Shown: in pieces, positions 3,852-8,362 of the stretch
Layout: each line of letters opens with the position of its first letter
How positions within the stretch are numbered: position 1 is the first letter of the stretch
Origin: Deltaproteobacteria bacterium
GTDB lineage: Bacteria; Campylobacterota_A; Desulfurellia; JAGGSF01
Reading direction: 5' to 3'
NCBI GenBank assembly: GCA_021159235.1
Contig: JAGGSF010000044.1
Location: 1 to 9,517, forward strand
Length of the DNA stretch: 9,517 nucleotides
The notes under the pieces: generated by a model
Database searches by the model: none
Told to the model about the DNA's origin: nothing
The model's input: only the letters and a program-made list of their open reading frames with translations
Position numbers and translations under genes: made by a program

Positions 3852-5366
3852 TTAGTTTCCCTCAGCGATTAAGTTAAGCAAATAGGATATATTCCCTTCA
3901 GGTGAACGACCTGTATCTATGATCACACCTTCACTTTTGGAGAGATGTTCAAATTCCTCCTTTTGTTTTACATATATCTCCCATCTTCCATCAGAAATCG
4001 TTTTTTTCTTCTCTCTCTTTCTCAATCTTTCTTTTATTTCTTTCTCCTTACATATTGTTTCTACAAAGATAGGTTTTATACCCAGTTTGGCAACCTCTCT
4101 TTTCAGTGTTTCTCTCTTTTCCTTTTTTCTATAGGTGGCATCTAATATTACATTTTGTCCCTGTTTTAATGCGTTCTTCGCTCTTTTTACCATTTCTGCA
4201 TAGGTTTTTTCTGTAATCTGTGGTGCATATATCCCCTCATTGTAGGAAGAAAATTCCCTTTTATAAGGAGAGAGGGATAAGAGTTCTTTTCTTACATAAT
4301 CAGAATGAAATACAGCGGAATTCAGTCTTTTGGCCAGTTCTTTGGCTATCGTTGTTTTTCCTGTTCCCGTTAAACCCATAATACAGAATAAGCGGGGTTT
4401 ATATCTTTCTGGAATATAGCTGTAGGATAGGTCAAAATACTGTCTGGAAGTCTCATCATTTGATTGAAAAGCATGAACCTTACCCCTTACATAAGCCCGA
4501 TAAATCTTATAAAATGGAAGAATGGATGGCAGGTTGTAGTCGTGGGAAAAATCCATGTAAGAAGATATGAAGTGTTGGGAAAGCTCTTTTTCATTATGAA
4601 AATCTAAGTCCATTGCTAAAAAGGCAACATCTGAAGCTGTGTCTGAATATCTGAATCGTTCGTTGAATTCTATACAATCGTATATGTATATATTATTATC
4701 CGTTATACAGATGTTTTTGGAATACAGATCGCCATGACAATCGCATATCTTCCCCTGTTTTATCCTTTCTGCAAACAGCTCTTTATTTTCCCTGTAAAAA
4801 TCATCTGTATATTTGAAGATAGCATCATATTGATGTTGTGTAATCAAATGGCCTATATAATCTTTAGTCTGCGCGAAGTTTTCATCCGTGTTGTTTTTAA
4901 TTACCTCTATTTTGCCAAATTTATCAATGTCTCTACTTCTTTCTGCCTTCTGGTGGAAATTGGAAATGATACATGCAATCTTTTCTACCATTTTTCTTGA
5001 AACCTTCTTTTCTTCCAGCAGTTTATCCATCATTCTTTCCTGCGGCATCTCTATCATCTTCACCGCATAATCTATTACTTTCCCCCTTCCATCTATGGTT
5101 ATATTACCACCATTGTTTTTTATGGGAACGACACCTAAATATATGCCGGGTGAAAGCCTTTTGTTTAGTTCCACCTCCTTAAAACAGAAATATCTTCTCT
5201 TCTCCAGTGTGGAGTAATCTAAAAAACCAAAGTTTACCGGTTTTTTTACCTTATAAGCATACTTTCCCGTTAAAAATACCCATGAAATGTGGGTCTGAAA
5301 GAGCTTGATGTGTTTTACCTCTTCAGGATATGCTTCCTTTTTCAACAGTGCTTCTACGATATCCAT
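3852..5366 (-). CDS. Two-domain predicted kinase: APH-like phosphotransferase plus P-loop (AAA_33/Zeta-like) kinase
   Basis: 504 aa. Residues about 1-320 are an aminoglycoside-phosphotransferase-like (COG2187-type) domain with ISWVFLTGKYAYKVKKPVNFGFLD (27-50), the Brenner-type catalytic motif HGDLYSKNI (211-219) and the metal-binding DCIEFNERFRYSD (230-242). Residues about 325-504 are a P-loop kinase domain with Walker A GLTGTGKTT (331-339), HSDYVRKEL (354-362), ILDATYR (407-413) and SDGRWEIY (458-465). This pairing is a recurrent bacterial architecture of unknown substrate, and antibiotic resistance should not be inferred. The frame is open to a GTG at 5399, but ATG 5366 has GGAGAG (5372-5377) five bases upstream, so I choose it. 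The gene overlaps the end of the RNase HII-QueH gene by 44 nt and ends one base before mscS. Confidence 0.9.
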   Translation of the reverse strand: MDIVEALLKKEAYPEEVKHIKLFQTHISWVFLTGKYAYKVKKPVNFGFLDYSTLEKRRYFCFKEVELNKRLSPGIYLGVVPIKNNGGNITIDGRGKVIDYAVKMIEMPQERMMDKLLEEKKVSRKMVEKIACIISNFHQKAERSRDIDKFGKIEVIKNNTDENFAQTKDYIGHLITQHQYDAIFKYTDDFYRENKELFAERIKQGKICDCHGDLYSKNICITDNNIYIYDCIEFNERFRYSDTASDVAFLAMDLDFHNEKELSQHFISSYMDFSHDYNLPSILPFYKIYRAYVRGKVHAFQSNDETSRQYFDLSYSYIPERYKPRLFCIMGLTGTGKTTIAKELAKRLNSAVFHSDYVRKELLSLSPYKREFSSYNEGIYAPQITEKTYAEMVKRAKNALKQGQNVILDATYRKKEKRETLKREVAKLGIKPIFVETICKEKEIKERLRKREKKKTISDGRWEIYVKQKEEFEHLSKSEGVIIDTGRSPEGNISYLLNLIAEGN

Positions 5367-6471
5367 GTTTTCTCTCCATAAGCGAGTATATACATCCACA
5401 GTAATTTTGTCTGTACATATTGAGTTTTTTTGAGAGCTCTACACTTTTCTTGAATCCATCCCTCTTTTTGAAATCTTCCTCCAGGAAGTTTACCCCAAAC
5501 TTTCCGGATAGAACCTCACCAATGTGGAAGATGCACTTTTCATCCTTCAAGGGGCTTACAGTCAAAGTGGTTGTAAAATATGGAACATGCATTTCTTCAG
5601 CCAATTTCACTGTTTCAAACATCCTCATTGCATAACACACCGTGCACCTCTTTCCCCTCTCCGGTTCATGCCTGTATATGTGGGTCATCTTGAACCATCT
5701 TCTAATGTCATATTTTCCTTCAATAAGTTTTAAATTCCACTTTTCAGCCAGTTTTCTTACTTCATCCAGTCTTCTTTCGTATTCCTTTCTGGGATGGATG
5801 TTCGGGTTATAGAAAAAGAGTGTTATATTGTTGAACCTGTTTTTCAGTCTTTCTACAACTGATGTAGCACAGGGACCACAGCAGACATGGAGGAGTATGC
5901 TATTTTCATTTCTTTTAACCATGGAAACGGGTTCAAAAGACAGGCGATGGAGGGGTGATACACCAAATCTTATAAGCATTTTCCTGTGCAGCTTTGTTCC
6001 GTAGGCCTTGTGTTTTTCAAACCTGTATTTCTGATACATATCGGAGAAGAGCATCATGAGTCTGTCTCGCCACACCTTGGCCAGTATGGAAGCAGCTGCA
6101 ATGGCATCTACCTTTTCATCGCCCTTTACAATTGTTTTGTATTTTATGGGCAAAGAAAAATTGTCCTTTCCATCTATGAGTAAAAAATCAGGTTTTTGGG
6201 GCATGTTTTCTATTGCTCTTTTTATGGCCATTTCCGTAGCCTTTACAATGCCTGCCTCATCTATCTCTCTATTTGAAGCCATCCCTATACCCCAGATCGT
6301 TTTCCTCTTTATTTTTTCATACAGCTTTTCTCTTGCCTGTGGAGATATACTCTTTGATTCTTTTAGAATGGGAAGATTCACACTGTCTGGTATAATTACG
6401 CAGGCTGCAACAACGGGACCTGCCCAGGGGCCCCTGCCTGCTTCATCTACACCACCTATTAGTTTTGCCAT
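5323..6471 (-). CDS. Ribonuclease HII - epoxyqueuosine reductase QueH fusion protein
   Basis: 382 aa, two complete enzymes in one frame. Residues 1-186 are RNase HII (rnhB type), which cuts RNA in RNA/DNA hybrids and single ribonucleotides in DNA. It has GVDEAGRGPWAGPVVAA (7-23), catalytic D9, E10, D100 (LLIDG) and D136 (AKVWRDR), IVKGD (114-118), AAASILAKV (125-133), HKAYGTKLH (154-162) and SPLHRLSFEPV (172-182). Residues about 190-366 are QueH (DUF208), which reduces epoxyqueuosine to queuosine in tRNA. It has LLHVCCGPC (193-201), FYNPNIHPRKEYERR (220-234), CTVCYAMRM (276-284), TTTLTVSPLKD (300-310), and NYCGCIYS (356-363), containing the cysteines expected for metal clusters. The linker is only a few residues. 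Met184 (5922) could in principle start QueH alone but has no Shine-Dalgarno. ATG 6471 overlaps the DUF89 gene by 13 nt. Confidence 0.93.
   Translation of the reverse strand: MAKLIGGVDEAGRGPWAGPVVAACVIIPDSVNLPILKESKSISPQAREKLYEKIKRKTIWGIGMASNREIDEAGIVKATEMAIKRAIENMPQKPDFLLIDGKDNFSLPIKYKTIVKGDEKVDAIAAASILAKVWRDRLMMLFSDMYQKYRFEKHKAYGTKLHRKMLIRFGVSPLHRLSFEPVSMVKRNENSILLHVCCGPCATSVVERLKNRFNNITLFFYNPNIHPRKEYERRLDEVRKLAEKWNLKLIEGKYDIRRWFKMTHIYRHEPERGKRCTVCYAMRMFETVKLAEEMHVPYFTTTLTVSPLKDEKCIFHIGEVLSGKFGVNFLEEDFKKRDGFKKSVELSKKLNMYRQNYCGCIYSLMERKHGYRRSTVEKGSIS
5372..5377 (-). promoter_or_regulatory. Shine-Dalgarno site fixing the start of the APH/P-loop kinase
   Basis: GGAGAG on the - strand with a 5-nt spacer to ATG 5366. 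The upstream in-frame GTG (5399) has no purine-rich site before it. The site lies inside the 3' end of the RNase HII-QueH coding region. Confidence 0.75.
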
Positions 6472-7334
6472 TCTCTCTTCTTGGAAAACACACGAGAAAG
6501 TAGTGGAAGATTCATGTAACGAGCAATCACACTACATTTTACGATGAATAGAAAGTAGATTCTACTGTCATCTACTTCAGATAAGGTTTCAAAGTTTCCC
6601 TGTCCTTTGGAGATAACAATATCTGCATTGTAAAACGCCTTTTTACATTTTTCACTGCACCGGGAGATGTCCAATCCCGGCATGGCACTACCACTGGAAA
6701 GTATTTCCCCTATATTCTGCATGTTTATAGCTTTCATTTCATCTACGGTGACATCGTTTATAATCGGTGCTTCCCTGCCTACCATCTTTATGTTTATTTC
6801 TGGATAAGTGTCTTTTATTGTCTGTAAAAGCAGTTTATCGAATACTATCTCTCCTGCATTGTCGGCAACAAAGAGAAGATTTTTTGCCTTTTTTAATTCT
6901 TCCATAAAGATTCTGGAATCATCAAGGGTTATTGTGACGGATAGGGATGTGTTTATGGCATCATCTACATCAAATTGCTCCATCTGCGAGCCAAAATCTA
7001 CTACATTTCCCGCTAAAGACAGTCTTACTGCTGTGTCTATGGGATTTTTTGATTCCTTGATTATTTTTTTTAGTTGAGGCAGGTAGGAAAAGGCAATCCT
7101 GGTAAACTTCTGTTTTACCTCTCTGTAGGGATCATCGTTGTTCAGCACCTTTTTTATGCACGAATATACACCTTCTGATATCACCGGTGGGGGTGCAGCA
7201 AAATCTACACTGGATAAATATCTTATAACGGATATTACCGCTTGCATCTTCTTTTCTTCGCTTGCTTTGATAATATCTGATGCTCTCAGGGCTTGATTCA
7301 TAAAACATAGAATGCATTCGGATTTTGCTTTCAT
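6459..7334 (-). CDS. DUF89 family (ARMT1-like) metal-dependent damage-control phosphatase
   Basis: 291 aa. DUF89 proteins are metal-dependent phosphatases proposed to hydrolyse damaged or excess phosphorylated metabolites; the substrate here is unknown. The N-terminal CxxCxxxQ pattern (C7, C10, Q14) marks the prokaryotic, COG1578-like subgroup. Other motifs are LSLAGNVVDFG (106-115), FVADNAGEIVFDKLL (155-169) with the probable metal ligands D158/N159, MVGREAPIINDVT (184-196), SKGQGNFETL (242-251) and FLFIVKC (261-267). All expected motifs are present, so it should be active. The open frame runs 100 codons further upstream to 7634, but that part is antisense to the hemB coding region and has no DUF89 similarity. 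ATG 7334, six residues before the CILC motif, is the natural start. It is the first gene of the minus-strand cluster and is divergent from hemB. Confidence 0.9.
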   Translation of the reverse strand: MKAKSECILCFMNQALRASDIIKASEEKKMQAVISVIRYLSSVDFAAPPPVISEGVYSCIKKVLNNDDPYREVKQKFTRIAFSYLPQLKKIIKESKNPIDTAVRLSLAGNVVDFGSQMEQFDVDDAINTSLSVTITLDDSRIFMEELKKAKNLLFVADNAGEIVFDKLLLQTIKDTYPEINIKMVGREAPIINDVTVDEMKAINMQNIGEILSSGSAMPGLDISRCSEKCKKAFYNADIVISKGQGNFETLSEVDDSRIYFLFIVKCSVIARYMNLPLLSRVFSKKREWQN

Positions 7335-7346
7335 TTTCTCAATTTC

Positions 7347-7375
7347 AGGATATATAATAAGTTGAAGGTTGTCAA
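7347..7375 (-). promoter_or_regulatory. Predicted sigma70-type promoter for the DUF89-RodZ cluster
   Basis: On the - strand there is a perfect TTGACA -35 (7370-7375), a 17-nt spacer and TATCCT as -10 (7347-7352, 4 of 6 matches). Transcription would begin near 7340, leaving a leader of only about six bases before ATG 7334. This is a prediction from sequence only. Confidence 0.5.
7353..7358 (+). promoter_or_regulatory. Predicted -10 element of the hemB promoter
   Basis: A perfect TATAAT lies 29 bases before the hemB ATG, giving a predicted leader of about 23 nt. The -35 position (around 7330-7335, TTCATT) is weak. The element sits within the spacer of the opposite-strand promoter, so the two would compete for polymerase. 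Confidence 0.5.
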
Positions 7376-7376
7376 T

Positions 7377-7384
7377 GAGGAGGA
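7377..7384 (+). promoter_or_regulatory. Strong Shine-Dalgarno site of hemB
   Basis: GAGGAGGA, with core GGAGG at 7379-7383, lies four bases before ATG 7388. It is one of the best ribosome-binding sites in the window and supports the hemB start. Confidence 0.8.
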
Positions 7385-7387
7385 AAG

Positions 7388-8362
7388 ATGCGGTTTCCAG
7401 AGGTAAGGGCGCGTCGGTTGAGGAAAAGCAAAGAGATAAGAGAGATGGTAAGGGAAACACGATTGTGTGTGAAGGATTTTGTCTATCCTTTGTTTGTGAA
7501 GGAAGGGATACACATGCCGGTGGATGTGGAATCCATGCCCGGTGTGCAGCAGTTGCCTTTGAAAGATCTGGTAAAGCAGGCGAAGAAGGCTTACAGTTCA
7601 GGAATACCAGCGGTAATTCTATTTGGTATTCCATCCCATAAGGATGAGATGGGTACTGAGGCTTACAGTGAGAAGGGGATAATAGCTCAGGCTATTAAAG
7701 CGGTGAAGGATGCGGTGCCAGAACTGGTGGTTATTGCTGATGCCTGTTTTTGCGAATATACATCTCATGGGCACTGTGGTGTTGTAGATAAAGAAGGCAG
7801 ACTTTTAAATGAACCTACCAGAGAGTTGTTGAAAAAAGAGGCTTATGTATATGCTGAGGCAGGGGCAGATGTTATTGCTCCCTCTGGAATGATTGATGGC
7901 ATGGTAAGTGCTATAAGAGAGGCACTGGATGGGGAAGGTTATGAAGATGTAGCCATTATGTCCTATTCTGCAAAGTATGCTTCTTCCTTTTATGGTCCTT
8001 TTCGTGATGCGGCAGAATCCTCTCCTCAATTTGGTAATAGAAAAACATATCAGATGGACATAGCCAATTCCAGAGAGGCAATAAAGGAGGTTATGCTGGA
8101 TATTGAAGAAGGTGCAGATATTGTCATGGTCAAACCTGCCTTACCCTATCTGGATGTTATAAAAGAAGTTAGTAGTAGGTTTCCATATATACCCTTAGCT
8201 GCATACAATGTATCCGGTGAATATGCAATGGTTAAGGCTGCTGGGAAGCTGGGTTATATAGATGAAGATGCAGTGATGATGGAGATGCTCACTTCTATCA
8301 AGAGAGCGGGAGCGGATATTATAATCACCTATTTTGCACTGGATGCAGCACGTCTTCTGTAA
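7388..8362 (+). CDS. hemB: Delta-aminolevulinic acid dehydratase (porphobilinogen synthase)
   Basis: 324 aa, the usual length for HemB. It condenses two 5-aminolevulinate molecules to porphobilinogen in the cytoplasm, the first common step to heme, siroheme and corrinoids. The N-terminus carries the family arm (RARRLRKSKEIREMVRET). The active-site zinc ligands are present as ADACFCEYTSHGHCG, with C120, C122 and C130, so this is the zinc-type enzyme. The two Schiff-base lysines are K196 (SYSAKYASSFYGPFRDAA) and K249 (VMVKPALPYLD). Further family signatures are ADVIAPSGMIDGMV (160-173) and YNVSGEYAMVKAA (273-285). The start at 7388 is set by a strong GAGGAGGA site. It is transcribed alone here, divergent from the DUF89 gene, and its last 34 nt overlap the end of nth on the other strand. 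Confidence 0.97.
   Translation: MRFPEVRARRLRKSKEIREMVRETRLCVKDFVYPLFVKEGIHMPVDVESMPGVQQLPLKDLVKQAKKAYSSGIPAVILFGIPSHKDEMGTEAYSEKGIIAQAIKAVKDAVPELVVIADACFCEYTSHGHCGVVDKEGRLLNEPTRELLKKEAYVYAEAGADVIAPSGMIDGMVSAIREALDGEGYEDVAIMSYSAKYASSFYGPFRDAAESSPQFGNRKTYQMDIANSREAIKEVMLDIEEGADIVMVKPALPYLDVIKEVSSRFPYIPLAAYNVSGEYAMVKAAGKLGYIDEDAVMMEMLTSIKRAGADIIITYFALDAARLL

Follow-up and report, generated by a model that had tools for sequence, protein, structure and literature searches.

The locus described here raises the question of why two enzymes, RNase HII (rnhB) and QueH, sit in a single reading frame, and whether they were joined by the compaction of an operon, by a shared function, or only by an error in the sequence. 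The window, by which we mean the whole stretch of 9,517 nucleotides that we analysed, comes from contig C44 of a Desulfurellia MAG (1.13 Mb in 122 contigs, 100% complete and 0.36% contaminated). By ORF call and translation, a 382-codon frame on the minus strand runs from 6471 to 5323 without an internal stop. Pfam assigns residues 7-181 of the 382-aa protein to RNase_HII (E 4e-32) and residues 192-365 to QueH (E 3e-68), both far above the cut-offs, and the source genome has no other copy of either enzyme. The initial annotation, which gave no strand, had read both enzymes from one frame with no stop or frameshift, and this stands: there is a single 382-aa ORF, and the two are also fused in relatives. 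The gene is laid out as follows.

5323..6471, minus strand: rnhB-queH fusion gene, 382 aa, ATG start, stop codon at 5323-5325 (ORF list and two Pfam domains).
5929..6471, minus strand: RNase HII domain, residues 1-181 (Pfam, NCBIfam and PDB matches; fold match).
5902..5928, minus strand: connector, residues 182-190 (model helix at 180-187; variable in sequence).
5371..5901, minus strand: QueH domain, residues 191-367 (Pfam; T. maritima QueH 7lc5 by sequence and by fold).
5326..5370, minus strand: C-terminal tail, residues 368-382 (low confidence in the model; overlaps the start of the next gene).

RNase HII half. The PF01351 match spans positions 2-198 of the 199 in the profile, so to speak the whole domain, and NCBIfam NF000595 (RNase HII) exceeded its cut-off. 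The solved sequence relatives of this half are the RNase HII enzymes of T. maritima, E. coli and S. aureus. In the AlphaFold2 model the half has the RNase H type 2 fold (Z 29.9 against 7uwe_C, 186 residues aligned, rmsd 1.1), and the RNase HII structures of T. maritima and E. coli match it at Z 26-30. The catalytic acids D9, E10, D100 and D118 are invariant in 16 aligned Desulfurellia members, as are the substrate-sensing tyrosine, Y157, and the GRG motif (G12-R13-G14). The domain, the acids, the GRG motif, the tyrosine and the fold are all shared with stand-alone RNase HII (rnhB; PF01351) such as T. maritima TM0915 (2etj, 3o3g) and the E. coli enzyme (7uwe), but the C-terminal tail of those proteins is replaced here by a connector to QueH, with a second enzyme after it. 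From these features we would expect the N-terminal half to nick DNA wherever ribonucleotides are embedded in it, and at RNA-DNA junctions.

QueH half. Here the PF02677 match covers positions 1-174 of 175, again the whole domain. The QueH cysteine set (an N-terminal CC, CxxC and CGC) is present when aligned to 7lc5, with CCGPC at residues 197-201, and C197, C198, C201, C276, C279, C358 and C360 are invariant in the same 16 members. The claims that both domains are complete, and that the four RNase HII acids and the QueH cysteine motifs are all there, were thus borne out by near full-length Pfam matches and by this invariance. T. maritima QueH, an epoxyqueuosine reductase (7lc5/7lc7), is about 38% identical over the domain and shares all of the cysteine motifs, and its structure matches the modelled half at Z 25.9. 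The fusion differs from it in carrying RNase HII at the N-terminus and in having Cys201 in place of Asp13. This position is Cys in all Desulfurellia; we do not regard Asp13 as family-defining because Cys is also common in unfused QueH (15 of 21 scorable loci).

We sought the pathway genes TGT, QueA and QueG family by family. TGT was found in 17 of 17 class genomes tested and QueA in 16 of 17, and in 14 there was no QueG match above its cut-off. The source genome itself encodes TGT and QueA at other loci, and no QueG above the cut-off was detected in it. With TGT and QueA present and QueG absent, QueH should therefore be the working epoxyqueuosine reductase, and the C-terminal half would be expected, from its sequence, to turn epoxyqueuosine on tRNA into queuosine by reduction.

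Connector. The linker had been put at about five residues. The gap between the domains is instead about 10 residues by Pfam (182-191) and is mostly helix in the model, and the distance from HRxSF, the motif that ends RNase HII, to HxCC, the motif that begins QueH, is 15-18 residues throughout the class. The AlphaFold2 model of the 382-aa protein, built with 31 sequences, has a mean pLDDT of 91 and a pTM of 0.81; pLDDT falls below 50 at residues 370-382. A confident helix (180-187) bridges the two domains and, together with the pTM, suggests that they have a defined orientation. This was the structure prediction proposed at the outset as a check on domain packing, and the model points toward packing. 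We also considered whether a free QueH could be made from an internal start. No in-frame start codon near the junction is kept across the loci, and in L017 and L023 the stretch examined contains none at all; QueH is therefore unlikely to be made as a product of its own.

The genes on either side lie on the same strand.

6459..7334, minus strand: upstream neighbour, DUF89/ARMT1-like damage-control phosphatase (Pfam PF01937; relatives of about 290 aa in the same order).
3852..5399, minus strand: downstream neighbour, an N-terminal phosphotransferase-like region followed by a C-terminal AAA_33 P-loop kinase (ORF list, Pfam and relatives).

The 3' end of the phosphatase gene overlaps the start of rnhB-queH by 13 bases, and the start of the kinase gene overlaps its 3' end. 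As called, the phosphatase ORF (6459-7634 of the window) reaches about 100 residues too far, into the region opposite the 5' end of hemB; its true start is probably the ATG at 7334 and not 7634. The kinase gene is kept beside the fusion in relatives. In families f1, f3 and f4 the fusion lies between the phosphatase and the kinase with ends that overlap or abut, except that L012 and L114 each lack one of the two flanking genes. Family f2 has another order: a translation operon that ends in a PadR-like regulator, then rnhB-queH, then tgt, with the fused gene directly before tgt. The initial annotation had guessed that two overlapping genes lost a stop codon. We believe that stop loss is the most likely origin because short overlaps, of a few bases, persist between neighbouring genes of the operon. 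A compact operon such as this is the kind of setting in which the loss of a stop codon would join two adjacent genes.

Within the class, the same fusion is present in all 19 genomes that have a complete locus. These cover four families, are 50-81% identical to the window protein and include the single-contig assemblies G004 and G009; so wide a distribution goes far beyond chance. Three further genomes have partial matches (G016, and L022 and L023, where contig ends cut the locus), and three incomplete genomes of the class have no match to the fusion. Comparison of three genomes of the same genus gave dN/dS values of 0.13-0.17 for the RNase HII half, 0.07-0.08 for the QueH half and a higher value for the connector. 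Purifying selection acts on both halves, and judged by their sequences both look functional.

The fusion is also found outside the class. With the class alignment as query, a scan of 84,980 species genomes found full-length fused matches in two Candidatus Gracilibacteria (L116 and L117), as single frames of 402 and 461 aa with UGA read as Gly. In that Gracilibacteria class, 37 of 288 genomes carry the fusion, and in each of these both domains were confirmed to lie in one frame. The domains, their order and the short connector are as in Desulfurellia (L116, L117 and the 35 other genomes); the differences are the UGA=Gly code, needed in nearly all of the 37, RNase HII insertions of the Gracilibacteria type, and CCxPD in QueH. 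L255 (G349), at the base of the fused group, has no in-frame TGA and needs no recoding, which suggests that the fusion may be older than UGA recoding or unconnected with it. The frame of L117 (5986-7371) contains proline/serine-rich in-frame inserts, TPNPSPSGERGTPNSPSPQKEEAA and SSPPPNPLPSKEGEGS, that look repeat-derived.

Among the matches listed, no other one spanned the two domains, either in 379 genomes sampled across the Gracilibacteria phylum or in about 360 genomes from about 250 families outside both groups. A scan of viral contigs for a viral origin gave matches to QueH only, apparently host genes. We also looked for a general adjacency of rnhB and queH from which fusions might be drawn. 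In 75 unfused RNase HII loci with flanks of up to 6 kb, queH was nearby only in L145, where it is upstream of the RNase HII gene and does not abut it. The proposed search for genomes with the two genes fused or adjacent gave 19 Desulfurellia, the source genome among them, and 37 Gracilibacteria with the fusion, and this one locus with queH in the vicinity. That two lineages fused the identical domain pair in the identical order is more than random joining would lead one to expect, yet we saw no general adjacency that would account for it; this weighs against the preferred explanation given below.

Did this happen once or twice? In the tree built on RNase HII, all Desulfurellia domains fall into a single clade (99/95), and those of the fused Gracilibacteria cluster with unfused Gracilibacteria (100/99) and not with Desulfurellia. 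Fused and unfused Gracilibacteria RNase HIIs also have insertions in common that are absent in Desulfurellia. In the QueH tree the two fused groups are close, but the sister of the Gracilibacteria QueH is an unfused lineage, f17 (88/86). At the residue that corresponds to T. maritima Asp13, Gracilibacteria have Asp and Desulfurellia have Cys. From these trees and alignments we believe that two independent rnhB-queH fusions, one in Desulfurellia and one in Gracilibacteria, are more likely. The alternative is a single fusion followed by horizontal transfer of the fused gene between the two groups. It draws on the closeness of the QueH halves, which can be held together at little cost (AU test, p 0.19), and on an AU test in which the fused RNase HIIs were held together with the three unfused ones that nest among them, which was not rejected at 0.05 (p 0.084). 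We set aside a p of 2e-4 for Desulfurellia and the fused Gracilibacteria alone, as that test is unfair with three unfused RNase HIIs nested inside. We judge a single fusion and transfer to be unlikely, though these tests do not formally reject it.

Gracilibacteria QueH has also changed partners. In L236, L239, L240, L241 and L242 it is C-terminal to a NadD-like nicotinate-nucleotide adenylyltransferase domain (in L240, TIGR00482 at E 1e-17, below the curated cut-off). As here, QueH follows an enzyme, but the partner is not RNase HII, and this is a second new QueH architecture. The QueH of these proteins nests among the fused RNase HII-QueH sequences in the QueH tree, and in this subgroup RNase HII is a separate gene or was not detected. 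The NadD-like part of L239 has an insertion of about 140 residues that, by eye, resembles a DUF559-type endonuclease domain. In L243, L244 and L245 the RNase HII nests among the fused forms, ends at the linker (SYKPVKKFLEK-stop in L243) and has no QueH, which looks like secondary loss.

These cases bear on whether the two halves work together. One way they could is through shared nucleic-acid binding, for example if the RNase HII groove helped QueH to hold tRNA; in a variant of the same idea, the QueH Fe-S centre would make the activity of RNase HII depend on the redox or iron state. The fixed domain order and short connector throughout Desulfurellia, recurring in 37 Gracilibacteria genomes, would fit such coupling, as would the orientation suggested by the bridging helix and pTM of the window model. 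However, the model of the Gracilibacteria fusion has a pTM of only 0.68 and gives less support to fixed docking than the Desulfurellia model does, and the connector is variable in sequence and under relaxed constraint. The loss of QueH and the swap to NadD argue against a strict need for shared substrate binding, and they fit a tolerant, opportunistic fusion better than an obligate coupling. To our knowledge RNase HII and QueH have no pathway in common, a point on which our results leave the initial annotation as it was. We consider coupling doubtful in either form. The more specific claim that one half steers or regulates the other, so that ribonucleotide repair in DNA would be linked to queuosine maturation in tRNA, seems to us slightly more doubtful still.

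The remaining explanation, that a miscalled base masks a stop codon or that one half is a dead and decaying gene, has in its favour only that the window stems from a fragmented MAG, and we give it almost no credence: it is refuted because relatives at 50-81% identity keep the frame open (in 19 genomes, the two single-contig assemblies among them), with invariant motifs and selection on both halves. The initial annotation had named both a miscalled base or missed stop and relatives with two separate genes as findings that would undo the fusion; the first is answered by the open frame in relatives, and of the second we found no case among the 19 complete class loci, which are all fused. On these comparisons, we regard the fusion as confirmed to be real and not a sequencing artefact.

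Our preferred explanation, which we hold to be probable on the sequence evidence, is that rnhB-queH encodes a real, constitutive and anciently fixed bifunctional enzyme that arose by stop loss between neighbours and persisted without chemical coupling, with independent fusions in Gracilibacteria. Adjacent, overlapping genes in a compact operon would have lost the intervening stop codon. The fusion may then have persisted as both activities were wanted and the N-terminus of QueH tolerates a partner, the two reactions not being chemically coupled. In Gracilibacteria, an independent rnhB-queH fusion and also a nadD-queH fusion would have arisen.

The initial annotation knew of no description of the architecture, and our search agrees: we found no description of an RNase HII-QueH fusion in the open-access literature (QueH with RNase HII, DUF208, gene fusion, Hippea and Gracilibacteria). 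A DUF208 lead was a word match only and irrelevant. A recent survey sought bTGT-transporter fusions, not QueH fusions (PMC11130926). The components are known, but the architecture appears to be undescribed, and its convergence appears to be new as well.

One consequence of the fusion is that these organisms cannot express their only RNase HII and their only epoxyqueuosine reductase apart from each other. An automatic annotation that names just one of the halves, as may happen, would miss a step of the Q pathway. As the fusion is ancient, class-wide and probably twice evolved, it is well suited, as a natural experiment, to asking whether fusions that converge reflect functional linkage or mere operon compaction.
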